Positions 1,524 to 18,565 of a DNA stretch of 18,816 bases are shown one piece after another; the stretch's first letter is position 1, and the number at the start of each line of letters is the position of its first letter. The DNA is from Actinomortierella ambigua (taxonomy: Eukaryota; Mortierellomycota; Mortierellomycetes; Mortierellales; Mortierellaceae). Made by a program: the position numbers and the translations under genes. The notes under the pieces are model-generated. The model searched no databases and was not told the DNA's origin. It saw only the letters and a program-made list of their open reading frames with translations. The stretch covers positions 1 to 18,816 of the forward strand of contig JAAAJB010000654.1 in the NCBI GenBank assembly GCA_016098155.1. The letters run 5' to 3'.

Positions 1524-4500
1524 ATGGCCTCTGCCAATGAGCTAGAACTCCTCGAGAATGTCGAACTTCGGTTCGCATTGGCAGAGACGGATGCTCAGCT
1601 GGAAAGAACTCTCACAACTTTCCTGTGCCCTGTCCTTCTGAAGCTTGCCTCGGATCAGGAAGTTGTTCGCAACAAAGTATGTGATGCCTTTGTCTGTCTA
1701 CCGAACCCTTAGTCTTGTCTGCTGAGCCCCTGCCTGTCTACTATATCAGACCCATGTCAGACCCGCAACCCGTATTGGTCGATTGACGCGTGTTTCCTGT
1801 TGTTGTTGAACGTAGGTGATTGGCATTCTCACCCATATAAATAAGCGCATCCGCTCCAAGCCCGAGATCAAGCTGCCGCTGCCAGGACTATTACAACAGT
1901 TTACAGACAGTCCGTCTGTGCTAGTCAGGAACTTTTCGCTCATGTATATCGAGATGGGGTTCCCGCGCATCACGCAAGAGGTAGCTTTCAGGCACTCCGC
2001 TGGCATATCCTTCACGTCAGATCCGCTGATCCACCGCTTCACTAATCTTTAACAACGCGTTTGTCCTCTCAACCCTTCGTTAGGAGAAGAGCGGACATTT
2101 GCCACGGCTCGTCAAGGGTATTTCTAAGCGACCTGCTGCCCAGCAAGTCACTCTTCTTCACATTATCCTGCCGGTAATCACGCCCTTTTTTTTTTTTTTT
2201 TTTTTCTCTCTCTCTTTCTCTCTCTCTCATGCCACGTTTGCTCAAAACACAATGGTTTTACCTTTGTAACGATTTCACAACTAGATCCTGGCGAACATCC
2301 GAAATACCGAGGACGACGCCACTGCAGATCCCTTTGATTTCACCATCAACCCTGCTGATGCGCTAGTGACTCTGTCTCGTTTCCTTGATGTTATCTTGTA
2401 TCGCCCTCCAACAACAGCACTCTCGTCACCATCGACCTCTGCGACAACCAGCGTAAGCATCGACTCTTCTCCGGCGTCAATGACGCACCCTGTTGTGCCA
2501 AATGGAATGAGCCCACAGGCCGTCAAGTTTGTATCCAATGACGGGAAAGCAGTCTGGGCGAATTCTTCGGGCCTCAAAGACATCAAGGTATGAAGACGGA
2601 AGGTGCCATATGCTGGCCTATGCAACGACGCTGTTTGATTGTATGTGCGTGATGCTTACACAAACAATGTTGTAGCTTGGTGTTTTGCGGTTCGTACTCT
2701 CGACATCAACCTTCCCTGATGACCTGGCGCCCAAGATCCACACTGCTCGATTCATCCTTCTTCTTGCCGCCACTGGTGACGTGTACAATGAAGTGTCTAG
2801 TCTAGGCGACGATGGACTGAAGCGTATCAAGCAGCCGGATCTGGAGCAAAAGGGCGTGGTGGATCAACTCTTTGAATTGTACCAGGGCAGCAACAATGGA
2901 ACGCGTATCCCAGGTCACGAAGACATGTTCCGCACCCCATGCTCCAACTCGGTCAAGCTCAAAATTATGGGCTATTTGATGAAATCGAAAAGAGCGACAA
3001 TGACTTTCCCATCGGCACTCCAAGTGTCTTTCGACTGCTTGTATGGACAATCGACAACCAGCAAACTGATCATGGCTGGAATGGCGTTCGTGCAGTGGAT
3101 GGCTCGAATGAGTGACCAGGCTGCTCTTGAACCCATTGCGCACGTCTTGGTTTCGGGTCTTCTCAAGTACACGCGCGTGAATGAAGATGCCGTCGGCATT
3201 GAGAGTGAATCATCCAAAGGCTTTGCCTACGTTGCAACGAGCTTGATTGCCAAGCGCGTGCCGAAGGTGGTCCGTCAAGACCTTTCAATTGTGAGCGGAT
3301 TCTTTGAGCAGATTGGAACCCAGCCAAGTAGCGTCAGGACGTATATCCAAGAGGCTTTGTGCACAATGCTCGAAGCTCTTGATCAGCCGAGGGACTGGGC
3401 GACGGCCGACGATATGGATGCCCTTGTCAAGATTGTCGAGTCGAACATTGATAAGGTAATTATGATTAGCTTGTAACTCGGGAAATGCGAAGCTTTTATG
3501 AAGTGATGTATGGACACATGGGTCTCACCAACTGTTCCTTTCTCATTCGAGTAGGAGCAGCATCAAGCTCGTTTCTGTGCCATCAAGTACGCCACCACTC
3601 TGTTCCCATTCTCAGACCTGTCCTCGAAGTACGTGTGTTTGATGAGCATTGTGGACGAGAAACTCGAGATCCGCGAAGAAGCCAAGAAGGGCCTCACGTT
3701 TCCTACCAACAGCAAGGAGCTTCAGCCCCAGCAACTCCCAGACTTTGCCAACCTCATCCAGCTCCTACTTGAAAAGTCACGACAATTGCGCAAAAGAGAC
3801 GAGACTTTCACCAACCGTCCTACATTTGGGAAATCTTTCATCCTAGGGTACCCGGCTGAGGTGTTCATTCATATACTACAGTTTCTGCGGCAGCTGCTGG
3901 TGATGAGCGCGGATCTTAATGTGATCACGGAAGAGTTGTCGTCCAATGAGTTTGAGTTGCAGCAATTTGTTTTCACGCCTTCCACGCGGCAAAAAGTTAA
4001 ACTGTGGCTCCGGAGTCTTTGGGACAAGGAAGAGAGTGCTCTGGACGATGGTGAGGTCAAGAGCCTCGCCAGCTACATTTCGCTGTTGGAAACAGGACTG
4101 GACTATCAAGGAACCCTTGGTTTGTTACAATGGCCTTATGAACAATGTCACTGCTGATTACCACGCTAAGGCAGTAGAGGTATTAATTAGGTGGATGTCT
4201 CAATCTCTTCACTGTAGACAAAAGCCTTCAGACGACGGCGCTGACATGCTTGCTTGAGCTTGTCTCTCTTGCACCTAGTGGACTCTCTATTCAATATTCG
4301 GATCGTCTTGGCTGGTTTAAGGTACATCTAATGTCAAGATAGGATCATACCCAAGTATTTCGTTGTAGAGTTCTGACTAACTTTTGGCTTGTCTCCTTCG
4401 TGTTCTTGTGCGTATGTTTGTGTGTATTGGGGGGGGGGATCAGCCTTATATTGCATCACCCAAGTCGGAGTCACGCCAAGCTGTTGCTCATATCATTGGC

Positions 4501-7500
4501 ATTGTTTCGACTGACGGGCTCCTTGAGCAGGGTCCTCGCCGAGAAGCATTCGCAAAGTTCATTAGCGAGCTTTTAGATGCCATTTACGACAGTTCGAAGC
4601 AGGTACACGTGTTCTGCCTTTTTTTGTCCTCGTGAAGGAATGTATCAAGTGTATTGGCGAATCATGCAGTTCCTTACTGTCTTACCATTTATGTTGCCCC
4701 TCCCCCTACCATGCAAAGACATCGGCCGAACTGAAGCATGGTAGCATCCTCGCCATCGGCTACATTCTCGGCCGCATCCTGTATCGCTACCCAGAAAATG
4801 GGCAGATCCAGTCCATCATAGCACAGAGCGATCTCGACAAGTGTATTTTGGCGATTGCCGATAATCTCGATGTGGCACAGAACATGTTCATCTCGGGAGC
4901 CTCGATGGCATTGGGTGAGATGGGTCGCTACGGCCCACTGCCGCTTTCCACGCCTGAGCACCGCGAGGATGTGTTGAAGCGCTTGATCCGTGTTGCAAGT
5001 ACAGCAAAGGACACCAAAGTGCAGGAGACAGCTATCACAGCCTTAGGTCATGTGGGTGTGGGAAACCCTGAGCTTGCCCAGCATATCTTGCAGCTATTTT
5101 ATGACTTGGCAGCAAAGAATCTCAAGCAAGCTGAAGTCAACTTTACGATCGGAGAGGCGATGGCGTGCATTGGCGGTGGCTGGACATGCACCGCCATGGA
5201 TGTTCATGTCGACTTGGCGGACGTGGAGCCTAGCTCAAGCAAACGGGTGCATGAAAACGGAGACATGCCATCTGGATCGTTGCTAATGGACAATATCCTC
5301 AACAAGATACTCGATGAGATGGCGCCGTCGCTAAAGGCTGGCATGAAGAAGGCTGCCTGCATTTGGCTACTCTCTATGGTCAAGTTTTGTTCGAGTCACC
5401 CGAGCGTCAAAAACCAACTACCGCGTCTACACCGTGTCTTCTCAAGCATGCTCTCTGATCGCGACGGTATGAATCTTGAGTCTTCCCTTCTACACTCCAT
5501 GTTCCATGTCAGGATAGTGTCTTTATCCATTAACCCCCCTTTTTTTTCTTCCTCTCTATTTCCATGCATCCAGAGATGACTCAGGAGGTGGCATCCAAAG
5601 GTATTGGTCTCGTGTACGACCTAGGCGATCAAAAGATGCGGACCCAATTGGTCGAGTCACTGGTCGGCATGTTTGGCGAGAACAGGCGTGCAAACCAGAA
5701 GGTCACGGGTGAGACCGAGATATTCGAAAGCAACGCGCTGGGCCAAGCTCCAGATGGCTCTTCGCTGTCCACCTACCAATCCATCCTCTCTCTGGCCAGC
5801 GACATGAACCAACCGGAGCTGGTCTACAAGTTTATGCACCTTGCCAGCCACAATGCCATGTGGCAGTCTCGCAAGGGCGCCGCTTTTGGATTTTCGTCTA
5901 TTCTCGCGCAGGCCGAGCAGGAGCTCAAACCCTACATGGCGACCTTGATCCCAAAACTCTACCGTTACCAGTATGATCCGAACCCTAAGGTCAATGAGGC
6001 CATGACGAGCATCTGGCGATCACTGGTCAAGGAGCCCAAGAAGGCTGTTCAAGAGTACTTTGACGTTATCATCCAAGACTTGCTCACCGGCATGGGTGCC
6101 CGCGCCTGGCGCTCGCGCGAGTCTAGGTACACTTTACCATGATAATGTCAATAGTGTTTTTGCGCAGAGCTGTATCGAGTCAAAGTAAGAACTCAAAATG
6201 CACGAAACGTCTAACGCTCGCGGGGAATTTTTCCACTTCATCTTTGTTTAGCTGTCTGGCGATGGCAGACCTGTTGCAAGGGCGCACGGTCGAGGAGATT
6301 GCAAAGTACTTGGAGCAGATCTGGAACATGTCCTTCCGCGCTCTGGACGACATCAAGGAAAGTGTTCGCGTGGCAGCATTCAAGACATGCCGCGCCATGA
6401 CGCTGATGACGGTCAAGTATTGCGACCCAAAGCATGTCAAGGTGGCGGAGGGTGAGCGTGTGCTGTCGATTGTTATCCCCTTCTTGCTTCACAAGGGCCT
6501 TGTCTCCAGTGCGGAGGATGTGTGCAAGTTTAGCCTGACGACTCTTCTCAAGATTTGCAAACAGGCTGGTCCGCTGCTGAAAAAGCATATTCCAGAAATT
6601 GTGGTGGCGTTATTGGAAGGGCTGACATCCATGGAGCCGCAAATGATGAACTACCTGTCATTTCACACGGACAAGTACCAGGTGTCACAGGAGCAGCTCG
6701 AGTCGAGTCGTTTGAATGCCGCCAAATTGTCGCCGATGATGGAGGGCATTGAAGCTTGCATTGAAACTATGGACGAATCAGTGTTGGCCGAGCTGGCGCC
6801 CATGTTGCACACAGCGATGCGCAAGGCTGTCGGCCTGCCAACCAAGGCTGGCTCGGCCCACCTGTTGGTTTCGCTCTGTATCAAGAAACCAGCGATAATG
6901 CGCCCACATGCCGATTCGCTCTTGAAGCTGTTGGGGGCCTTGGTCAAGGACAAGTCCCCCGCTGTTCGCAAGTCGTATTCCGTCTCTGCAGGGTACATGG
7001 CGCGGCTTGTCTCGGACGAGGCCCTTGTCCGGTTCCTGAGTCTCATGAGCACGCGTTATGTTGAATCAGAAGAGGAAGAGGACATTCGCTCCGTGTCGGC
7101 GATTGTGGTGCGCGAGATCTCCAAGAATGCTACGGATCGGTTCAAAAGTGTTGCATCGTGTATTTTGCCGACTGTATTTTATGGGACTGTGGATGCACAC
7201 AAGCAAATTGCCGAGATCTGGAAAGAGGTCTGGGAAGAGCACACGGCAGGATCATCGGCCACCATTAAGCTGTATGCCAACGAGATTCTCGACCTCTTGG
7301 CAAAGCAGCTTACCTCACCTTCTTGGAACGCCAAGAAGCAGTCGGCACTGGCCATCAAGGTGGTCGCCGAGACTATGGGTATGTAGAAAGCCCCATGGTG
7401 AAGATTCTTGGAATGCTCTCGACTCCAAAACTGGCACTTTTTACTAACCAACTCTTCCCAATGTCTTCTTTCCTACTCATTTATGTAGATCTGGCCGTAT

Positions 7501-8939: not shown

Positions 8940-11900
8940 ATGGCCGCAACCACCTTCGACAATCGACCCATGCCAGCTTGGAGCAAAAGCAATCCTCGCC
9001 GCTTTTTGGGCGATGACGACCGCCTCCGAGAGTTCTCTTCATTCTTCGCGCGTTATTTCGATAGCACTCATCCACAGCATGACCCGGCCGACACCGGCGC
9101 CACACATTTCATGCACATTGACGAGCCACAACACCCCGACGTGTTCAATCGCGTGGCAGCGGAGTTTCGCCAGCACTGCCGCGCACCAGACGACTTTGAG
9201 ATTGTCAAGGTGGAGCTTTTGAGAAACAAGGTCGTGTGGAAGCGCTATCAGGCTGACAAGGCCGCCCGTCGTGAGCTAGAGGCCGAAAAGTACGCTCAGC
9301 GCCGAATGGCTCGCATGTCTGGCAGGCCGAGTGCGAAGAAGACACAACAAGGGGACGCGGTCACCACTTCTTCGCCCACACCTGCGACTCCACACGCGTG
9401 CAACCCTTGGTATGACGCCGCCTTGAAACGTGAGCATGAGGAGGCATGCCGACCCTCCGACCCTAGCAACATCGGCTTTGGTGGAGGCAGCCATCCCGCA
9501 GCAAACATCAAGGATCCCCCAAAAACAGCATTCTTTGACGCCATTCTCTTCCATGGAACATCGACTTGCGCTCTCCCATCTATCCTGGAGAACGGCTTGG
9601 ATCCGCGCACAACATTCCGAAGCTGTTACGGCCAAGGCCTCTATTTCTCGGATACAGTGGAGAAGTGTATGCACTATGTTGACATCCAGGACACTTTCGT
9701 CCAGGTGTACTCCATCCTCCTATGCTGCGTGGTGCTCGGCAACGTACTAGTCAACCCATTTGCGAAGGATCAACGCCAAGTGAATTCAGACACGCTCTTT
9801 TTGCCTCCTGGCTTCGACTCTGTCTGTGAAATGAATCCTCTCAAGGAGTTTGTCGTGTAAGAACGATCAGAAATACTGTACCCGTTTTATCAGTTATCAA
9901 TCACTGTGTCCTGCTATGGTATCCCATGTACCTCCCCTACCTTTCATTCGCTGACATCGATTTTTTTTTTCACCTACACTGTTCTCACTCTTTGATATAG
10001 GTTCGAAAAAACGCAGGTGCTCCCGCTATGTGTCATCTCGATCAAGGCATCCAACAGCCCATCGAGTTTCTGGCGCATCTGCAATCCATTGCTCCATACG
10101 TACCCGCGCGAATTGCAAACTGCGCACACGTTTATACATGTAACGGCTCCTGTAACTCAGAATCCAGTTCGTATAACTCAGCCTCTGGTATCCACCCTCC
10201 CTAGCCCTCCAGGAGCAGGACTATCTCCCGCCGGTGGGTCGCTGATGGCAGTATTTGGTGCAAAGCCTCTTCTAGCGGTCCCGCCCTTGGACACACTTGG
10301 CGTAACTTGGGCAAATATCTCGCTTGAGACCGAGCTCGCAACCATTGGGTCGCTCCTCAACCTGCAACCATTTGGAATTAAGAAGGCATCGTGCTATCTC
10401 TATGGTCTGCTGTACACTCTGATTGCTGGTACTGTTGCGTGGAGCGGAGAACAGCTGATCGTGCGCATTCCCCCACAACAGTACCAATCCATGCTCACCG
10501 AGACTGTGGAGAGAGACAGATTGGAGGAACACGAGAGTATCGAACGCAAGAGCAGACTCGTTCTAGAGGCTGCAACAGAGAGCCGTCTTCGGGCAGAGTT
10601 TGACAAAAACCCCGCCATGCACCAACTTTATCCGGTTGGCAAGACGATCCTCATGGACATGGACAAAATCAAGCAAGAACTCGCAAATTTTCCAGCTGCT
10701 CGCCAGGCTATTCTCGACGCCTCTACCAGTCAGTTTGCCCATATCACTCAGTGTCAGCTGCAGGATATTCAAAGACGCAATGATGACTTGCTCGCGCGCC
10801 AGCTCCTGCTGCTCGAGGATGCCAAAAAGTTTACTCTTGAGCAACAGCAGTGGATTATTGCCATGGTAGAGGAAGAGGCTAAACTTGCACGCATGAGACA
10901 AGCCCACATCGACGCCGGTGTTGCCGCCGATCACAAGCTGAGCCAGCTCGACAATAAGGCGCGGCAGGCCGCATCGACAATGGTCGAAATGACGCTGGAT
11001 GAGCTGGCAATACTCGTCCGGATTGCAGAAAACGCCAAAAATACTCCAGCAACCCCATTTGGAAATTTGACAACGCTCGCTTTTAACGTCAAATCCAGCA
11101 TCTTTGCCTCTGCAGCCAATCTACAGCCCTTCATGTGTCGCACATATCACATCACCTGTTGGGAGGCAGAGGCATGGCCTCAGATGCTAGCCGAGATGCT
11201 TATGAGCCGCGTACTCATTTCCAAGATCAAGCCTGCTACGTTTCAGTTGTTGCTCAGCCAGACCCGCAAAGTACTCTTTTATGATCCCCACTCTCAAGCC
11301 GTTCAATTTGACGGGGAAAGTGGACAGCGGTTTGTCGTCGCCAAAAATGGCTGGTGGTACGACGCGCCGCGACGACATTTTCAAACCCCAGTCGCTGCAA
11401 GTCGATTCTGGCCAGTCGACCCTCGGTCTCGCCTGCCCAACCGTTCGTTTCAGAAGCTTGAGGACTATCTGATCTGGGCAATCACGAAGACGGAGAAACG
11501 CAAGCTCACCTTGTCACGCAATCTCGAAGCTAATTCACCATCACACCCATCGTTGCTTCAAAGACCCCAGCCGCTCTCAATCGAAGAGACCTTGAAGCAA
11601 CTGGAGCATAAGATTCAGGATGGGATTGAAGCTTTGGATTCCTCTGTTCGGCTTGCCATTGCAGGATTATCGGCTGTTTCGGGCCGTGTTGTGTTTTCGC
11701 GGCAAGAGATGGATGGTTTCCTCGAGCAGCATGTGACCAGCGTAGTCAGCTCACTATTTGAACCGGCAACGCCAGATATGCTCCCCCAAGGATCTGAGTG
11801 TTCCGTTTGTCTGACGGCGTTTTCATCACCGGCCAGCTCTACATCGGCAAACCCCTCGATAACCTACAACAAGGCAAACGGTGTCGTTCAGTTGGATGCC

Positions 11901-13142
11901 GATTCACGCGCCGTCAAACTCAAGTGCTGCCGCCACTGCTTCCATGAGACTTGTATTACATCCTGGTTCCATGCACCGTCAACTATTCTCAAGTGCCCCG
12001 TTTGCAGCGAATCCTGTTTACCAACACTTGGACGGCGTCGCCCGCAACAAGGCGTTGGCAACGAGGATGAGGAACGCAGTGCAGTATTTCCCAAGCTTGG
12101 ACCAGCCCCTGACGGCGTGATGGGCTATTACTTTGATCCACGGATGTGTGCCTATTACGTTTGGTTCACAATGCCAGGCCATGATACCTGGAGCTCTACC
12201 ACCACTTCCGGGCCGATGCTTGCTCGAGTTCCTGGTGAAAATCGGTTTGCGATCATCCCCTTTTCTGCAAGACTGGGACCCATGCTACTTATTCGTATGA
12301 TTGTGGCATTCAAGTTTGGCCACATGTTCCGCGTAGGCCGATCGCTAAGCCGTAATATGGACAATGTCGTCACCTGGAACGGTATTCATTGTCGGACAGA
12401 TCTTACCAATCGTTTCGGATTCGGCTTTCCACAACCCAGCTATGAAGCCAATGCCTGGGACGAACTCAACCAGAAGCACATCGCGATGAGTCTGACATCT
12501 CTACTGGAGTTTTTCTTGGGCCCACAGAGAAAGGAGAGAACTCTACCTTTCTCCTATCCTCTCTCATCATCAACCACGACAAAAACTATAGGAAGCGATA
12601 TAGTGCCCACCACTGTCGTCGGCGTAGGGGCCACTAATGCTCAGAATGACATGTTCGATAGAGAGGACGACCATGAGGTTGAGATGGAGATGTTCGACTG
12701 TGAGTACGAAGAAGTCGGGGAAGTCGAATCTCTGGGAGCATCTGCCTCTTGCACAGGATTGTCAACTTCAGTCACCAGTGCCACCGTCTCCCAACAACCC
12801 GCCCAGCAGCCGCCGCAACCACAGTACTCTTTTCAACGCCAACATCAAAAGCCAGTAGACTTTTGGCTGGACACCAATTCAAATTATTTTCATTCTCAGG
12901 ACGAAACTAGGAGAGAATTCGATGCCTTAGCTTGTGAGCATTCAAAAAAGATTGAGGAGGCCGTTCGGGTGCGCATGAGTCGAGGCATGCCCGTTGAAAA
13001 GGCGATAGAGGATGTCATGAATGTTGTTACTGGTCATAATGGCTCGGCGTCTCGTGAAGATCAAGAGCGGGATGACGGGCTACTGGCGTACACGAATCAC
13101 CAAGGTTTCTTTGACCCCAAATGTCCACTCATGTTTGGATGA
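8940..13142 (+). CDS. PARP-type ADP-ribosyltransferase fused to RING-Deltex (DTC) ubiquitin ligase
   Basis: Two exons, 8940-9856 and 10001-13142, encode 1,352 residues. Residues about 85-325 form a PARP catalytic domain of macroPARP type. The entry segment is VELLRNKVVWKRY (91-103), and the triad is H205 (LFHGTS), Y235 (GQGLYFSD) and E303 (NPLKEFVV), with the closing strand QVLPLCVISI in exon 2. A roughly 75-residue low-complexity insert (about 120-195) precedes the LFHGTS strand. Residues 471-640 look coiled-coil. The RING is C906-x2-C909, C949-x-H951, H954, C957 and C971-x2-C974. It is followed by a divergent DTC domain, about 1009-1140: PDGVM, FRVGRS, VTWNGIH (H1102), FGFPQPSY and WDEL (E1127). 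An acidic, Q/P/S/T-rich tail ends in a charged helix. Expected roles: NAD+-dependent ADP-ribosylation plus RING E3 activity with ADP-ribose binding by DTC. The start is the first ATG (TCCATGGCC). Domain calls are from motif recognition; the combined function is inference. Confidence 0.9.
9857..10000 (+). other. Intron inside the ADP-ribosyltransferase fold
   Basis: 144-nt GT-AG intron (donor GTAAGA, acceptor TTTGATATAG, with a poly-T run before it at about 9961-9970). It splits a valine codon four residues after the catalytic glutamate E303. The closing strand of the same domain lies at the start of exon 2, which ties the two exons to one protein. If retained, translation stops at once (GTG TAA), giving a 306-residue product without the RING-DTC part. 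Confidence 0.9.
11799..11996 (+). other. RING finger (RING-H2 type) in the fusion protein
   Basis: Residues 906-974. Putative zinc ligands are C906, C909, C949, H951, H954, C957, C971 and C974, that is C-x2-C-x39-C-x-H-x2-H-x2-C-x13-C-x2-C. Order and spacing fit a RING-H2 E3 ligase core. The C909-C949 loop is long and serine/threonine-rich. An extra Cys (C948) and C952 flank the third and fourth ligands and could substitute for them. Confidence 0.88.
12105..12500 (+). other. Deltex C-terminal (DTC)-like domain
   Basis: Residues about 1009-1140, about 35 residues after the RING, as in Deltex ligases. Matching landmarks to the animal DTC domain are P-x-G-x-M at the start (PDGVM), a hydrophobic helix followed by F-x-[VI]-G-x-S (FRVGRS), VVTWNGIH for VVWNEIHH, GFGFPQPSY for GHGYPDxNY, and DEL for AEL. 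The N-terminal half is shorter than in animal DTX proteins. The second His of the IHH motif is Cys, and the His of GHGYP is Phe (F1113). The family call is confident; the ligand-binding state is not. Confidence 0.85.
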
Positions 13143-13546
13143 CCCAGGAACTATACGACAGTGCTGCACTCTCCGCTGAACGTTGCTTGGAACGATAAAA
13201 AAAACCCACTTCGCAGGAACTTTGCACCCCCCCCCCCCCCCCCAAAAAAAAAAAAGAAAACGCAGCCATCTGAGCAAAGTCTACTTTATCATTAGTTATT
13301 CATCGACTGTGAATGTTGCTGTTTAAACCATTTGCGTTTCAATCGGCTAAGGATCAAACGTGCGATATGCACAGCCAACGATGAAACGGAACCAATTTTT
13401 TTAGAGGCGATGCCAAAGTCATTCCAAAAAGCGATCGACTTTGACTGCGCCGACCATAGCATCTGTTGTATAAAACAGGTGCGTGATGCATTTCATATCC
13501 CTTTCTCCACCACCTCTCTATTCCTCAACCAACACAAACCCCATAC
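13143..13546 (+). promoter_or_regulatory. Spacer upstream of SEC9 with TATA-like box
   Basis: 404 bp without a supportable gene. It contains the C17-A12 junction (13227-13255), then an AT-mixed stretch, then TATAAAA at 13469-13475, 71 bp upstream of the SEC9 ATG. A CT/CA-rich leader (13496-13546) follows. TATA position and leader composition fit a conventional core promoter. Confidence 0.5.
13227..13255. repeat. C17-A12 homopolymer junction
   Basis: Seventeen C (13227-13243) directly followed by twelve A (13244-13255), then G and four A. It lies in the spacer about 85 bp after the stop of the PARP-RING-DTC gene. The run lengths are likely imprecise or polymorphic, and the G17 complement could form a quadruplex-like structure. 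Confidence 0.85.
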
Positions 13547-14479
13547 ATGAGCTACGGCGGCAACCTTCACCGACGGGACCAGGGCTTGTATTCAAGACCA
13601 GGTGCTTTGTACCCCGATCATTCCGCTGCGTTAGTGCCCAACCGGCAACAGGACAGTAATAACACCTCGATAAGCTTCATTCGCAATACCGGCGAGGTCT
13701 TCAGTAATCACGACGCCTCGTCCCAGCCCACTTCAACTTACCAAGGCGTGACTGAGAAGGACGTCGCTCAAGTGCAGCAGCAGACTCGGACTGTACGCAA
13801 CGATACAGTACAGTCCCTCGAGAACTCCTATCGGACTCTACTTGAAGCGCAAGCAAGTGCTGATCGATCCCTGGTTGTTCTCGATGAAGGTGGGCGATCA
13901 CTGGAGAGCACAGGGCAGAACATCCAACGAGGACAGCTCCTGACCGACGTCGCCCTAGACAAGACTGTGGCCCTCAAGAAGGCGCAACGATCCATTTTTT
14001 CAGTTTCGATCAACAACCCTTTGACAGCGAGCAAGCGCAAGAAGAAGGAGAAGGAGCTGCAAGATCAAGCAAGAGAGCGCGCCCTCCGCAAAGCTCAGGA
14101 CGACGCTTTGGAGCGCGATCGGATCCGACAGGGAGAGGGACAGAGAAGTTTGTATGCACAGCCACCTACACAGCCCACGCCAGACCCTTATGGCACGCGG
14201 TCGTTCTACCCAAGCGGATTCAACAGAGGCCACTTGACGGCGGAGCAGCAGCTCTACTCATTCGAGAACACCGCCGAGGACAACTTGAACGAGGAAAAGA
14301 TTGATTACATGATCACAGAGTGTATTCCTGGCGCCGTGTCGACTTTGCGTGAGAGAGCGCTTGCCATGCAAGCGGAGGTTCACCGGCAGAACGAGGTGAT
14401 CGATCGATTGCGGGACGACGTTACTTGTCTAACAGGAGAAGTGGAGCATACTACCAGGCAGCTACGACATGCCAAGTAA
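13547..14479 (+). CDS. SEC9: Sec9/SNAP-25-like Qbc-SNARE
   Basis: 310-residue, intronless t-SNARE light chain expected on the plasma membrane, pairing with a syntaxin (Sso) and a synaptobrevin (Snc) to drive exocytic fusion. The N-terminus (1-70) is polar and disordered. The first SNARE helix (Qb, about 75-145) contains RSLVVLDEGGRSL, then VALKKAQRSIFSV and a NNPL-K-R/K-rich segment, which aligns with yeast Sec9 (ELKKLNRSI, SNPF, RRRRE). A basic helical linker follows. The second helix (Qc, about 245-305) is introduced by YSFEN and has LRERALAMQAEVHRQNEVIDRL, with the ionic-layer glutamine Q281. In the first helix the position equivalent to the ionic-layer glutamine is G115. There are no palmitoylatable cysteine cluster and no membrane segment, as in Sec9. 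The ATG at 13547 follows a TATA box at 13469. Confidence 0.9.
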   Translation: MSYGGNLHRRDQGLYSRPGALYPDHSAALVPNRQQDSNNTSISFIRNTGEVFSNHDASSQPTSTYQGVTEKDVAQVQQQTRTVRNDTVQSLENSYRTLLEAQASADRSLVVLDEGGRSLESTGQNIQRGQLLTDVALDKTVALKKAQRSIFSVSINNPLTASKRKKKEKELQDQARERALRKAQDDALERDRIRQGEGQRSLYAQPPTQPTPDPYGTRSFYPSGFNRGHLTAEQQLYSFENTAEDNLNEEKIDYMITECIPGAVSTLRERALAMQAEVHRQNEVIDRLRDDVTCLTGEVEHTTRQLRHAK

Positions 14480-15798: not shown

Positions 15799-18154
15799 AT
15801 GCAGACTGACTCGCCATTCATCCCGTTGCAGCAAGCAAGCAGCACCATCGCCACTATCGTCGAACAGGCCAAGGACAGTGTGCTTCCTTCGGATGCTGCA
15901 TCTGGTGACGCCTCACACACAAGCATCAACACCGCGTTTGCCTCTCTACCGACCACCTTCTATGACAGAGCTGTCAATATTCAGCTGAAGCCTGTCCTGG
16001 AAGGCTTTCCCAGTCTGGAGCTTGCATACTTCTTGGAGGTCGCATTCCGACTGCATCTACTCGCCGCACAGGTAGTGCTTTCCCCCCCCCTCAGTTGCTA
16101 TCTTCATGTTTACTGTTGTGCATGTTCTCGTGCTTAACAATTTTTTTATTGTTATCATTGTTTTTGGCTGGACTCGTGTAGAGCAAATTGGTATCCCGTT
16201 CGATAGAGCTCAAAGTCCACCTCTTTCAGACTCTTGACCTCTTGCTTCGTTGCCAAGAACTTGGCCTCTGTGAAGACGGGGTGCCATTGGCACTGATGGG
16301 AGAAGTCCTGGATCTTCAAGCTATCGACAACTGCGAGTCCGTCTATGAGTACCTAGAGCTGCGGAAGGAGCGGTTGACAGTGGTACGTTGAAAGGAGGCA
16401 TGGCATGCACCAATGGTCGAGATCATTACCATGTACAGGAGATGGAGGCTGTTTGTTTGAGCTATGATGTTTCTGCGACACCTTATCACTCGCTCTAGAG
16501 ATAACCCTTCGAAGCCTAACATCCCGTCTGTCCATGCTTTCGACTTGTCTATTAGGGCATGGAACCAAATAGAGGGAAAGGACTGACGTTACTTCGGCTG
16601 TGTAATGAGCTTTTGAAACGTTTGTCAAGGGCGAAGAATACAGTGTTCTGCGGCCGCATCCTAGTCTTCTTGGCAGGCGCGTTTCCTCCCAGCGAACAGT
16701 CCGGCGTCAACAAGCGAGGCGAATACAACACTGAGAACGTTACCGTCATCGAGGACGAAGAGACATGTGTCGTGCCAGAGATTTCAGAATCTGCCATGGA
16801 CATCGATGATGGTAAGTGGGCAAGGACAGTTGTAACAATGATCAGGACTTAAGTGAATAATGAAGACTGAAGGCTAAATCAACTCCCTTCTTTGTATGGA
16901 CATTGTCAAACAATCCAACAAACAAAAAATACAGGTAAACGCCCACCGACTACCTCAGAGATGACAACGCCAACCCGTGCGGACTGGGAGTTCTACCGGC
17001 AGTTTTGGGGACTTCAAGAGTTTTTCAGCAACCCCGCTGTCCTGGCCAACTCTTCGGAAAAGCAGGCAGCTCTGCTCAAGGGCATGGAGGACGCATTGGC
17101 TCGCTTCACCGAAGTGAACGATGAAAGAAGACGCTTAGCGGCCAAAGGCGAAGTCGTAGCAGCAGGAGTGGCAGCAGGAGTGATGTCCAGCGACGCAAAG
17201 GAGGACTCGAAGGAGGACGCCAGGGATGCTGTGGTACCAAAGTCTAAGCGGAGGCATGCTACTGCATTTGGATCGAGGGCAGCTGCGGAGGCGACCTCGA
17301 GCACCTACTTTCCAAAGTTTCTGACCAGCCCAGCTCTACTCAAGCTCGAGATTTCGGACCCATATTTCCGGCGACATATTTTGCTGCAGTTTCTGATCAT
17401 GATCGACTTCCTGCTTGATCATGCAGAAGACCCACAAAAAGACTGGAGCGCGACTCTGAACAAGGCGATGATCCCTGCCTGGACCGTAGACACTGGAATG
17501 ACAACATGGGCAGCAGATTTTCGCAGGCGCATTGGCAGAGAGCTGGCGGCAACGAGTATGTCGGCGAGTGGCAGTGGCCGTGGCTTCACGCTGACAGTCA
17601 AGAACACACTGATACACGAGAAGAGCTGGATCCAATGGAAGGCCGAAAACTGCAAGCCTTTCGAGAAGGCATGTATGGATTCGTCGAGTGTACATACCAA
17701 GACTGCGGCGCGGAAGAGGCAGGAGCAACGGATCGAGCCCGTTGAGTTCAAGCGATCGATGGGCTGTGCGTCATTGACCGAGTTGTGGGAGACCAGCGTG
17801 GAATCCGATTTTTGGGGCGAGGTCACGATGACCAATGGTCACATGCCCAAGGACGTGGTCAGCGACTATCTCAACGGCGTCGATCGTATCAATCGGATCA
17901 TGCCCATTCAGAGGAAGAACATGGGCATGCGGCCGATGACTCCAGAAGAAAGTCAGGAGAGAGACAAGTCCCAGCTCTACAAGGCATTGCGTCTCGGCTC
18001 TGAGTTTAGTCTGCACTTGTACAATCAGGTTGTTAATGCCCCCAACGGCATCTTCACTATCAAAGACCTTACAGCGGCGATGAAGAAGGACGAGGAGCTG
18101 GAAAAGGAGATTGCCGCGAACGGAGGCAAGCTTCCGCCTCGACAGCCACCCCAG

Positions 18155-18186
<32 letters not shown>

Positions 18187-18565
18187 ACAACAACAACAAC
18201 AACAACTACAACAACAACAACAACAACAACAGCAACAACCTTCGTTGACGCAGCCAAGCTCCACACCAGACACCACCACAAGCAATGCCAATGCAGCTGT
18301 AGTCTCGATCACCATCGACAAGGCAGAGCCTGAGTCTCAAGCAGCTGAAGCGTCTGATCATGCAGGCGAAGGGTCGTCAGATCATGCACATACATCATCC
18401 TCTACACCTATTGGCGTCCTTTCTGACAACGATGAGCCTGAAGTCAAGGACTCCAGTGCGCCGCCAGAGGCTTCAGCAATGGAGGTTGACAAGGATCGCA
18501 CAGGTCTCGGAATCGTCGTTGTAAAGGACGAAAGCAATGACGGCAAAGGAGAAGCTCAGGCATAG
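15799..18565 (+). CDS. HPR1: THO complex subunit 1 (THOC1/Hpr1)
   Basis: Core subunit of the nuclear THO/TREX complex, which couples transcription elongation to mRNP assembly and export and limits R-loops. Exons are 15799-16071, 16182-16382, 16556-16811 and 16935-18565, all GT-AG and phase-consistent, giving 786 residues (human about 657, yeast about 752). THOC1 blocks appear in order: [13 protein letters not shown] (exon 2), [12 protein letters not shown] and NTVFCGRI and ENVTV (exon 3), [11 protein letters not shown] (about 267), FPKFLTSP and [10 protein letters not shown] (about 390), a W-x2-WK motif ([10 protein letters not shown]) and LTELWE. The usual human C-terminal death domain is not visible. 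Instead the C-terminus has a glutamine tract (650-678) and an acidic S/T/E-rich tail to 786. It diverges from the lyase gene across a short shared promoter. Confidence 0.92.
18152..18238 (+). repeat. Polyglutamine-coding tract in THO1
   Basis: 29 codons: 18 Gln, one Leu (CTA), 10 Gln. The 5' part mixes CAG and CAA while the 3' part is mostly CAA. It lies after the structured THO region (residues 650-678), directly following RQPP. Long antisense open frames of Val/Cys/Leu over it are repeat artefacts. Confidence 0.92.

Follow-up and report, generated by a model that had tools for sequence, protein, structure and literature searches.

Human cells carry a recently discovered hybrid mark, ADP-ribosyl-ubiquitin, which is made by separate writer and ligase proteins, namely PARP7 with DTX2 and possibly PARP14 with DTX3L (PMC12687431, PMC13224862), and the interplay of writer and ligase there has been described as poorly understood so far (PMC13224862). 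Could one protein do both jobs? The question is raised by a gene at 8940-13142 on the plus strand of the 18,816-nucleotide stretch of DNA analysed here (the window), which is the entire contig C615 of a 33.8-Mb genome of 846 contigs. An earlier note on this DNA had proposed that the gene encodes, in a fungus, a PARP transferase and a Deltex-type RING-DTC ubiquitin ligase in a single chain. Both modules do lie in one reading frame, with their catalytic residues intact. On balance, judging from the sequence, the product probably joins a clade-3-like PARP and a Deltex RING-DTC ligase in one chain and would make ADP-ribosyl-ubiquitin as a single molecule.

Gene structure

The gene comprises two exons, and its spliced frame, which begins at the first ATG of the open frame, encodes 1,352 residues and has a single, terminal stop codon. 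Left unspliced, the frame meets a TAA at 9858-9860, directly after V306. The donor, GTAAGA, lies at 9857 and is followed on inspection of the sequence by a branch-like CTGAC at 9951-9955, a run of T and an ATATAG acceptor ending at 10000. Five splice pairs would keep the frame open, and only 9857-10000 uses a GTAAG donor. This intron is well supported because splicing adds the last strands of the PARP domain: PARP12 chain 2pqf_A matched exon 1 alone with 18.6 bits (E 0.01) and the spliced sequence with 30.9 bits (E 1.7e-6), the alignment now extending to residue 327, with FVVFEKTQVLPLCVI encoded by exon 2 aligned to PARP12 FVIFEKHQVYPEYVI. Exon 2 therefore encodes these strands. The match to PARP14, which is based on two short stretches, was not improved by splicing (26.7 bits before, 26.2 after). 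Together, the splice test and the gain in the PARP12 match bear out the coordinates of the earlier note, its single frame and its intron between 9856 and 10001.

The open frame of exon 2 is 1,046 codons long and carries the end of the PARP domain together with the RING and the DTC. A codon-usage test, trained on 2,032 codons from the other genes of the window, backs the proposed frame in 14 of 16 segments of 240 bases, in both exons (coverage excluded bases 9660-9856 and the final few). Two segments, 11202-11441 and 11922-12161, do not favour it, and 10722-10961 does so by only a small margin over one of the reverse frames.

Retention of the intron would give a 306-residue, PARP-only product without the last strands of the domain and without the ligase, and could serve as an off switch. 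About 85 bases past the stop codon, at 13227-13255, a run of 17 C is followed by 12 A, a possible assembly slip site.

PARP domain

The N-terminal module is recognised by Pfam PF00644 both in exon 1 alone (45.4 bits, E 9e-12) and in the spliced N-terminal 333 residues (48.2 bits, E 1.2e-12), above the cut-off of 26.7 in each case. At E<=0.01 it matched 20 PDB sequences, which belong to PARP12, PARP14, PARP13 (zinc finger antiviral protein), PARP10 and PARP15, all of them clade 3 PARPs (PMC2964712); we provisionally regard the PARP half as clade-3-like. In comparison with PARP14 and PARP12, about 80-90 extra residues precede the HGT motif. The ADP-ribosyltransferase domain with an H-Y-E triad that had been read from the letters is thus recovered by the profile, and H205, G206, Y235, Y246 and E303 are invariant when the domain is aligned with the genome's two further PARPs, so that the triad H205-Y235-E303 is present.

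The third residue of the triad deserves comment. The glutamate is tied to polymer formation and has been lost from most clade 3 PARPs (PMC2964712, PMC13224862), a loss not seen here, where E303 is present; in a 2010 survey, the sole clade 3 PARP that keeps it is one Tetrahymena protein (PMC2964712). With H-Y-E, the product may be chains or single units. More generally, the PARP half looks like a live transferase because H205-Y235-E303 is kept, whereas the triad of PARP9 has been lost and reads Q-Y/S-T/S (PMC2964712).

RING and DTC domains

Pfam PF18102 (DTC) matched exon 2 at residues 1048-1132 with 42.7 bits (E 7.9e-11; cut-off 25), so that, of the profile checks that the earlier note had suggested, those for PARP and for DTC ended above the Pfam cut-offs. 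Against solved structures, all three sequences that the RING-DTC piece matched at E<=0.001 were Deltex proteins (DTX2 at 6.1e-9, DTX3L at 1.9e-6 and DTX1 at 2.7e-6), in keeping with the DTC-like domain proposed before. The RING has the full set of eight ligands claimed for it (C906, C909, C949, H951, H954, C957, C971 and C974), each aligned with a ligand of the DTX2 RING, and the spacing between ligands two and three is long, as in DTX2.

In the DTC domain, H1102 and E1127 fall on DTX2 H582 and E608, the DTX2 numbers being counted from the printed chain positions of the alignment. The two DTX2 residues have been proposed to activate the 3' hydroxyl of ADP-ribose for ubiquitin transfer, and substituting them impairs the transfer of ubiquitin to nicotinamide adenine dinucleotide (NAD+) (PMC7615817, PMC11460948).

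Between the modules, residues about 330-900 include a proline-rich part, a charged part that looks helical and a part without a recognised fold. Residues 627-873 had no PDB sequence match at E<=10, and Pfam gave no match to a macrodomain, KH, RRM or WWE domain in the fusion protein. The coordinates of all features are collected in Table 1.

Table 1. Features of the gene, with positions in the window and the residues or evidence behind each.
Feature	Positions	Strand	Residues and basis
Exon 1	8940..9856	+	start codon and the bulk of the PARP domain; residues 1-305 plus two bases of codon 306
Intron	9857..10000	+	144 bases, GTAAGA...AG
Exon 2	10001..13142	+	rest of the PARP domain, then a long middle region, the RING and DTC, the C-terminal tail and the stop codon
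PARP catalytic domain	9117..10064	+	residues about 60-327, split by the intron; Pfam PF00644, PARP12/PARP14 matches
Insertion inside PARP domain	9267..9536	+	gap between matched stretches to PARP14 and PARP12
PARP triad H205	9552..9554	+	alignment
PARP triad Y235	9642..9644	+	alignment
PARP triad E303	9846..9848	+	alignment; isoleucine in PARP12
Charged, helix-like stretch	10461..11048	+	residues about 460-655; composition; no family match above cut-off
Middle region, no recognised fold	11151..11573	+	residues about 690-830; no Pfam match above cut-off
RING finger	11796..12011	+	residues 905-976; eight ligands, Deltex-like
DTC domain	12090..12482	+	residues about 1003-1133; Pfam PF18102 and DTX2, DTX3L, DTX1 matches
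DTC catalytic histidine H1102	12387..12389	+	aligned with DTX2 H582
DTC catalytic glutamate E1127	12462..12464	+	aligned with DTX2 E608
C-terminal tail	12483..13139	+	residues 1134-1352 (about 220); no family match

Mechanism and alternatives

We can present a proposal for how such a protein might work. The PARP half would use NAD+ to ADP-ribosylate a target or its own chain, the DTC half would bind the attached ADP-ribose, and the RING would hold the E2-ubiquitin thioester. H1102 and E1127 could then activate the 3' hydroxyl of the ADP-ribose, so that ubiquitin would become ester-linked to it and the hybrid ADP-ribosyl-ubiquitin mark would result. The fusion would substitute for the separate recruitment seen in PARP14 with DTX3L or in PARP7 with DTX2.

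Several observations weigh against this proposal. Neither profile match covers its whole domain: PF00644 is matched at profile positions 50-124 of 199 only, and PF18102 at positions 48-132 of 133. The RING profiles stayed below their Pfam cut-offs, the best being zf-ANAPC11 (24.2 bits against 25), with zf-RING_2 at 22.8 against 27.3. The two modules are about 570 residues apart. Single-sequence AlphaFold models were too poor to use, with a predicted local distance difference test (pLDDT) score of 44.7 for residues 53-306 and of 36.0 for residues 649-1150; a Foldseek search with the former had a best E of 2.8, nothing at E<=0.001 and no PARP among nine matches. The serine of the nicotinamide pocket, which we take to be S904 in PARP1, corresponds to C243 here. 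In the DTC domain, F1113 occupies the position of DTX2 H594 and DTX3L Y719, which have been named as residues of the ADP-ribose pocket (PMC11460948); we do not treat this as defining, because the position varies within the Deltex family. Finally, DTX2 ubiquitylates itself via isopeptide bonds (PMC12000418), and an ester may therefore not be the main product.

What other activities would fit the same architecture? Since the hybrid mark is found in human cells on PARP10, PARP7 and PARP14 themselves (PMC12000418), the main rival is a self-limiting switch, in which the PARP half would modify mainly its own chain and the DTC domain would ubiquitylate that ADP-ribose, the protein thereby marking itself for turnover upon NAD+ use. 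The fusion does place self-modification beside the ligase; however, the sequence has no pointer to a self-modification site and external targets are equally compatible, and we regard this as possible, if on the unlikely side. An ADP-ribose-guided ligase of the ordinary kind, in which the PARP half would make mono- or poly-ADP-ribose, the DTC domain would do no more than bind it and ubiquitin would go to target lysines, would suit the binding of poly-ADP-ribose by DTC, which mediates substrate ubiquitylation (Ahmed 2020, as cited in PMC12000418), as well as the presence of E303, the polymer-linked residue missing from most clade 3 PARPs (PMC2964712, PMC13224862). It is nevertheless unlikely in view of the conservation of both H1102 and E1127, whose DTX2 counterparts are required for NAD+ ubiquitylation (PMC7615817).

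The remaining readings dispense with one of the activities or with the fusion itself. The PARP half might be a scaffold without transferase activity, leaving the RING-DTC alone to act on NAD+ or free ADP-ribose; PARP9 is such an inactive PARP, an isolated RING-DTC suffices for the ubiquitin/ADP-ribose chemistry (PMC12687431, PMC13224862), and the PARP domain here is divergent, with its insertion and C243. Against this stands the retention of H205-Y235-E303, as opposed to the lost triad of PARP9 (PMC2964712), which makes a mere scaffold quite improbable. Two separate genes, one for a PARP and one for a Deltex protein, could also have been joined by a faulty gene model or assembly, given that the model rests on genomic sequence and that an unspliced message would end at the early TAA as a PARP-only product. 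This we reject, considering it very improbable indeed, as the final PARP strands sit in exon 2 within the same frame as the RING-DTC, and codon usage follows that frame across both exons.

Comparison with known proteins

The earlier note likened the protein to the human PARP9-DTX3L heterodimer. The pairing of a PARP with a Deltex protein stands as a parallel; the choice of PARP9 does not, and because PARP9 is inactive, a closer analogue is PARP14 with DTX3L, or else PARP7 with DTX2. The heterodimer consists of two chains and includes an inactive macrodomain PARP, whereas here we find one frame, an intact triad and no matched macrodomain. In the human PARP14/PARP9/DTX3L complex, clade 3 PARPs are paired with a Deltex RING-DTC ligase, and the best PDB matches of the fusion protein, PARP12/PARP14 and DTX2/DTX3L/DTX1, may be compared with that complex. 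However, it is described as three chains that contain KH domains, macrodomains, RRMs and a WWE, with leucine replacing the glutamate in PARP14 and with PARP9 inactive (PMC13224862), while the fusion is one chain that has the H-Y-E triad and matches none of these additional domains. Human PARP7 and DTX2 resemble it in that an active PARP and a Deltex protein make the hybrid mark, although they do so as two proteins (PMC12687431), and in the PARP7 subclade, 3E, the glutamate position is taken by isoleucine or, in two members, by valine (PMC2964712), where the fusion has E303.

On the ligase side, the fusion shares with DTX1-4 and DTX3L a RING followed by a DTC, with the catalytic histidine and glutamate conserved. 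The N-termini differ, in that the fusion has a PARP domain where human DTX1, DTX2 and DTX4, like Drosophila Deltex, begin with a WWE-type region (PMC8424196) and where DTX3L carries RRM and KH domains (PMC13224862).

Other PARPs are joined to domains of the ubiquitin pathway. Fungal clade 6A PARPs with a C-terminal, E2-like UBCc domain provide a fungal example, but they belong to another PARP clade and have the E2-like domain where the fusion has RING-DTC (PMC2964712, PMC4245714). In Dictyostelium, DDB0232928 joins a clade 3 PARP to an E3-type domain, with a U-box at the N-terminus and a macrodomain; its published description includes no DTC (PMC2964712), and Deltex chemistry is therefore not implied. 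Clade 3 PARPs were reported from all eukaryotic supergroups in a 2014 survey (PMC4245714), and the word Deltex is absent from the main text of both PARP surveys (PMC2964712, PMC4245714). In the open-access literature we found no description of a PARP-RING-DTC fusion, fungal proteomes and subscription surveys of ADP-ribosyltransferase fusions being outside the scope of that search, and public domain databases may already contain one that has drawn no comment. We rate the fusion with RING-DTC as a variant on the known theme of PARP fusions with ubiquitin-pathway domains, not as a new category.

Implications

If the fusion protein does make the hybrid mark by itself, it might represent a one-molecule ADP-ribosyl-ubiquitin synthase outside Holozoa, which writes ADP-ribose, possibly as chains, and caps it in cis, in an organism without a detected macrodomain. 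We consider this wider claim plausible while stopping short of calling it probable. Were it true, the coupling of PARP and Deltex would either predate the interferon-linked animal system by far or be independent of it. The natural fusion also suggests that PARP and Deltex activities belong together, and as a self-contained enzyme it could be used to test, through E303 and H1102 mutants, whether the ADP-ribose made by the PARP is the substrate of the Deltex module. Furthermore, Deltex was called holozoan-specific in 2009, in a paper that defined it as WWE plus RING (PMC2770060), and a fungal Deltex module, if the host is indeed a fungus, conflicts with that statement.

Genome context and neighbouring genes

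The families that bear on the identity of the host are Zn2Cys6 and chitin synthase, which mark fungi. In a profile search of the genome, Zn2Cys6 matched 21 times and chitin synthase nine times at exon level, the latter on five contigs, and the host genome looks fungal, as the earlier note had assumed. The guanine-cytosine (GC) content of the window is 0.508; PARP, ARH and PARG loci on other contigs lie at 0.502-0.536, with trinucleotide correlations of 0.744-0.909, and two Zn2Cys6 loci are less like the window (GC 0.554-0.557; correlation 0.641-0.659). There is no sign of a foreign contig, as far as this weak composition test goes.

The genome has one DTC match, and no second RING-DTC copy was found in it. 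PARP matches occur at three places, the fusion gene and two on contig C191, where at 25661-34896 two PARP genes lie about 8 kb apart. One of these is PARP1-like, with BRCT and WGR beside the regulatory and PARP domains, and the other is a divergent regulatory-PARP protein with runs of glycine, serine and asparagine. A PARG match and an ARH-type hydrolase, the latter as three stretches on one contig, one with an internal TAG, are possible erasers, so that ADP-ribose marks could be removed. No macrodomain was matched genome-wide in six frames, a search that an intron-split gene could escape and that gave matches in 8 of the 14 control genomes (all prokaryotes). WWE, radial-spoke and HPF1 gave no genome matches either, a weak result, since the control genomes gave none.

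Relatives were also sought elsewhere. Viral contigs searched with exon 2 yielded 5 pattern stretches and prokaryote genomes searched with the RING-DTC yielded 23, with no confirmed relative in either set; in phages, no relative was confirmed at E<=1e-5. The viral and prokaryote searches used six exact peptides each and therefore exclude only close relatives, and plasmid and metagenome collections were outside their scope.

Upstream of the fusion gene and on the same strand, several open frames at 2676-7383, probably continuing to about 8670, encode the proteasome scaffold Ecm29, whose position beside a ubiquitin ligase gene is probably a coincidence. Downstream, an open frame at 13547-14479, which had no Pfam match, presumably resembles a SNARE of the SNAP-25/Sec9 type. 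Pfam identifies the downstream neighbours as a class IV aminotransferase and THO complex subunit 1, the latter at 16871-18562 (efThoc1, E 3e-47) and with a long polyglutamine stretch.

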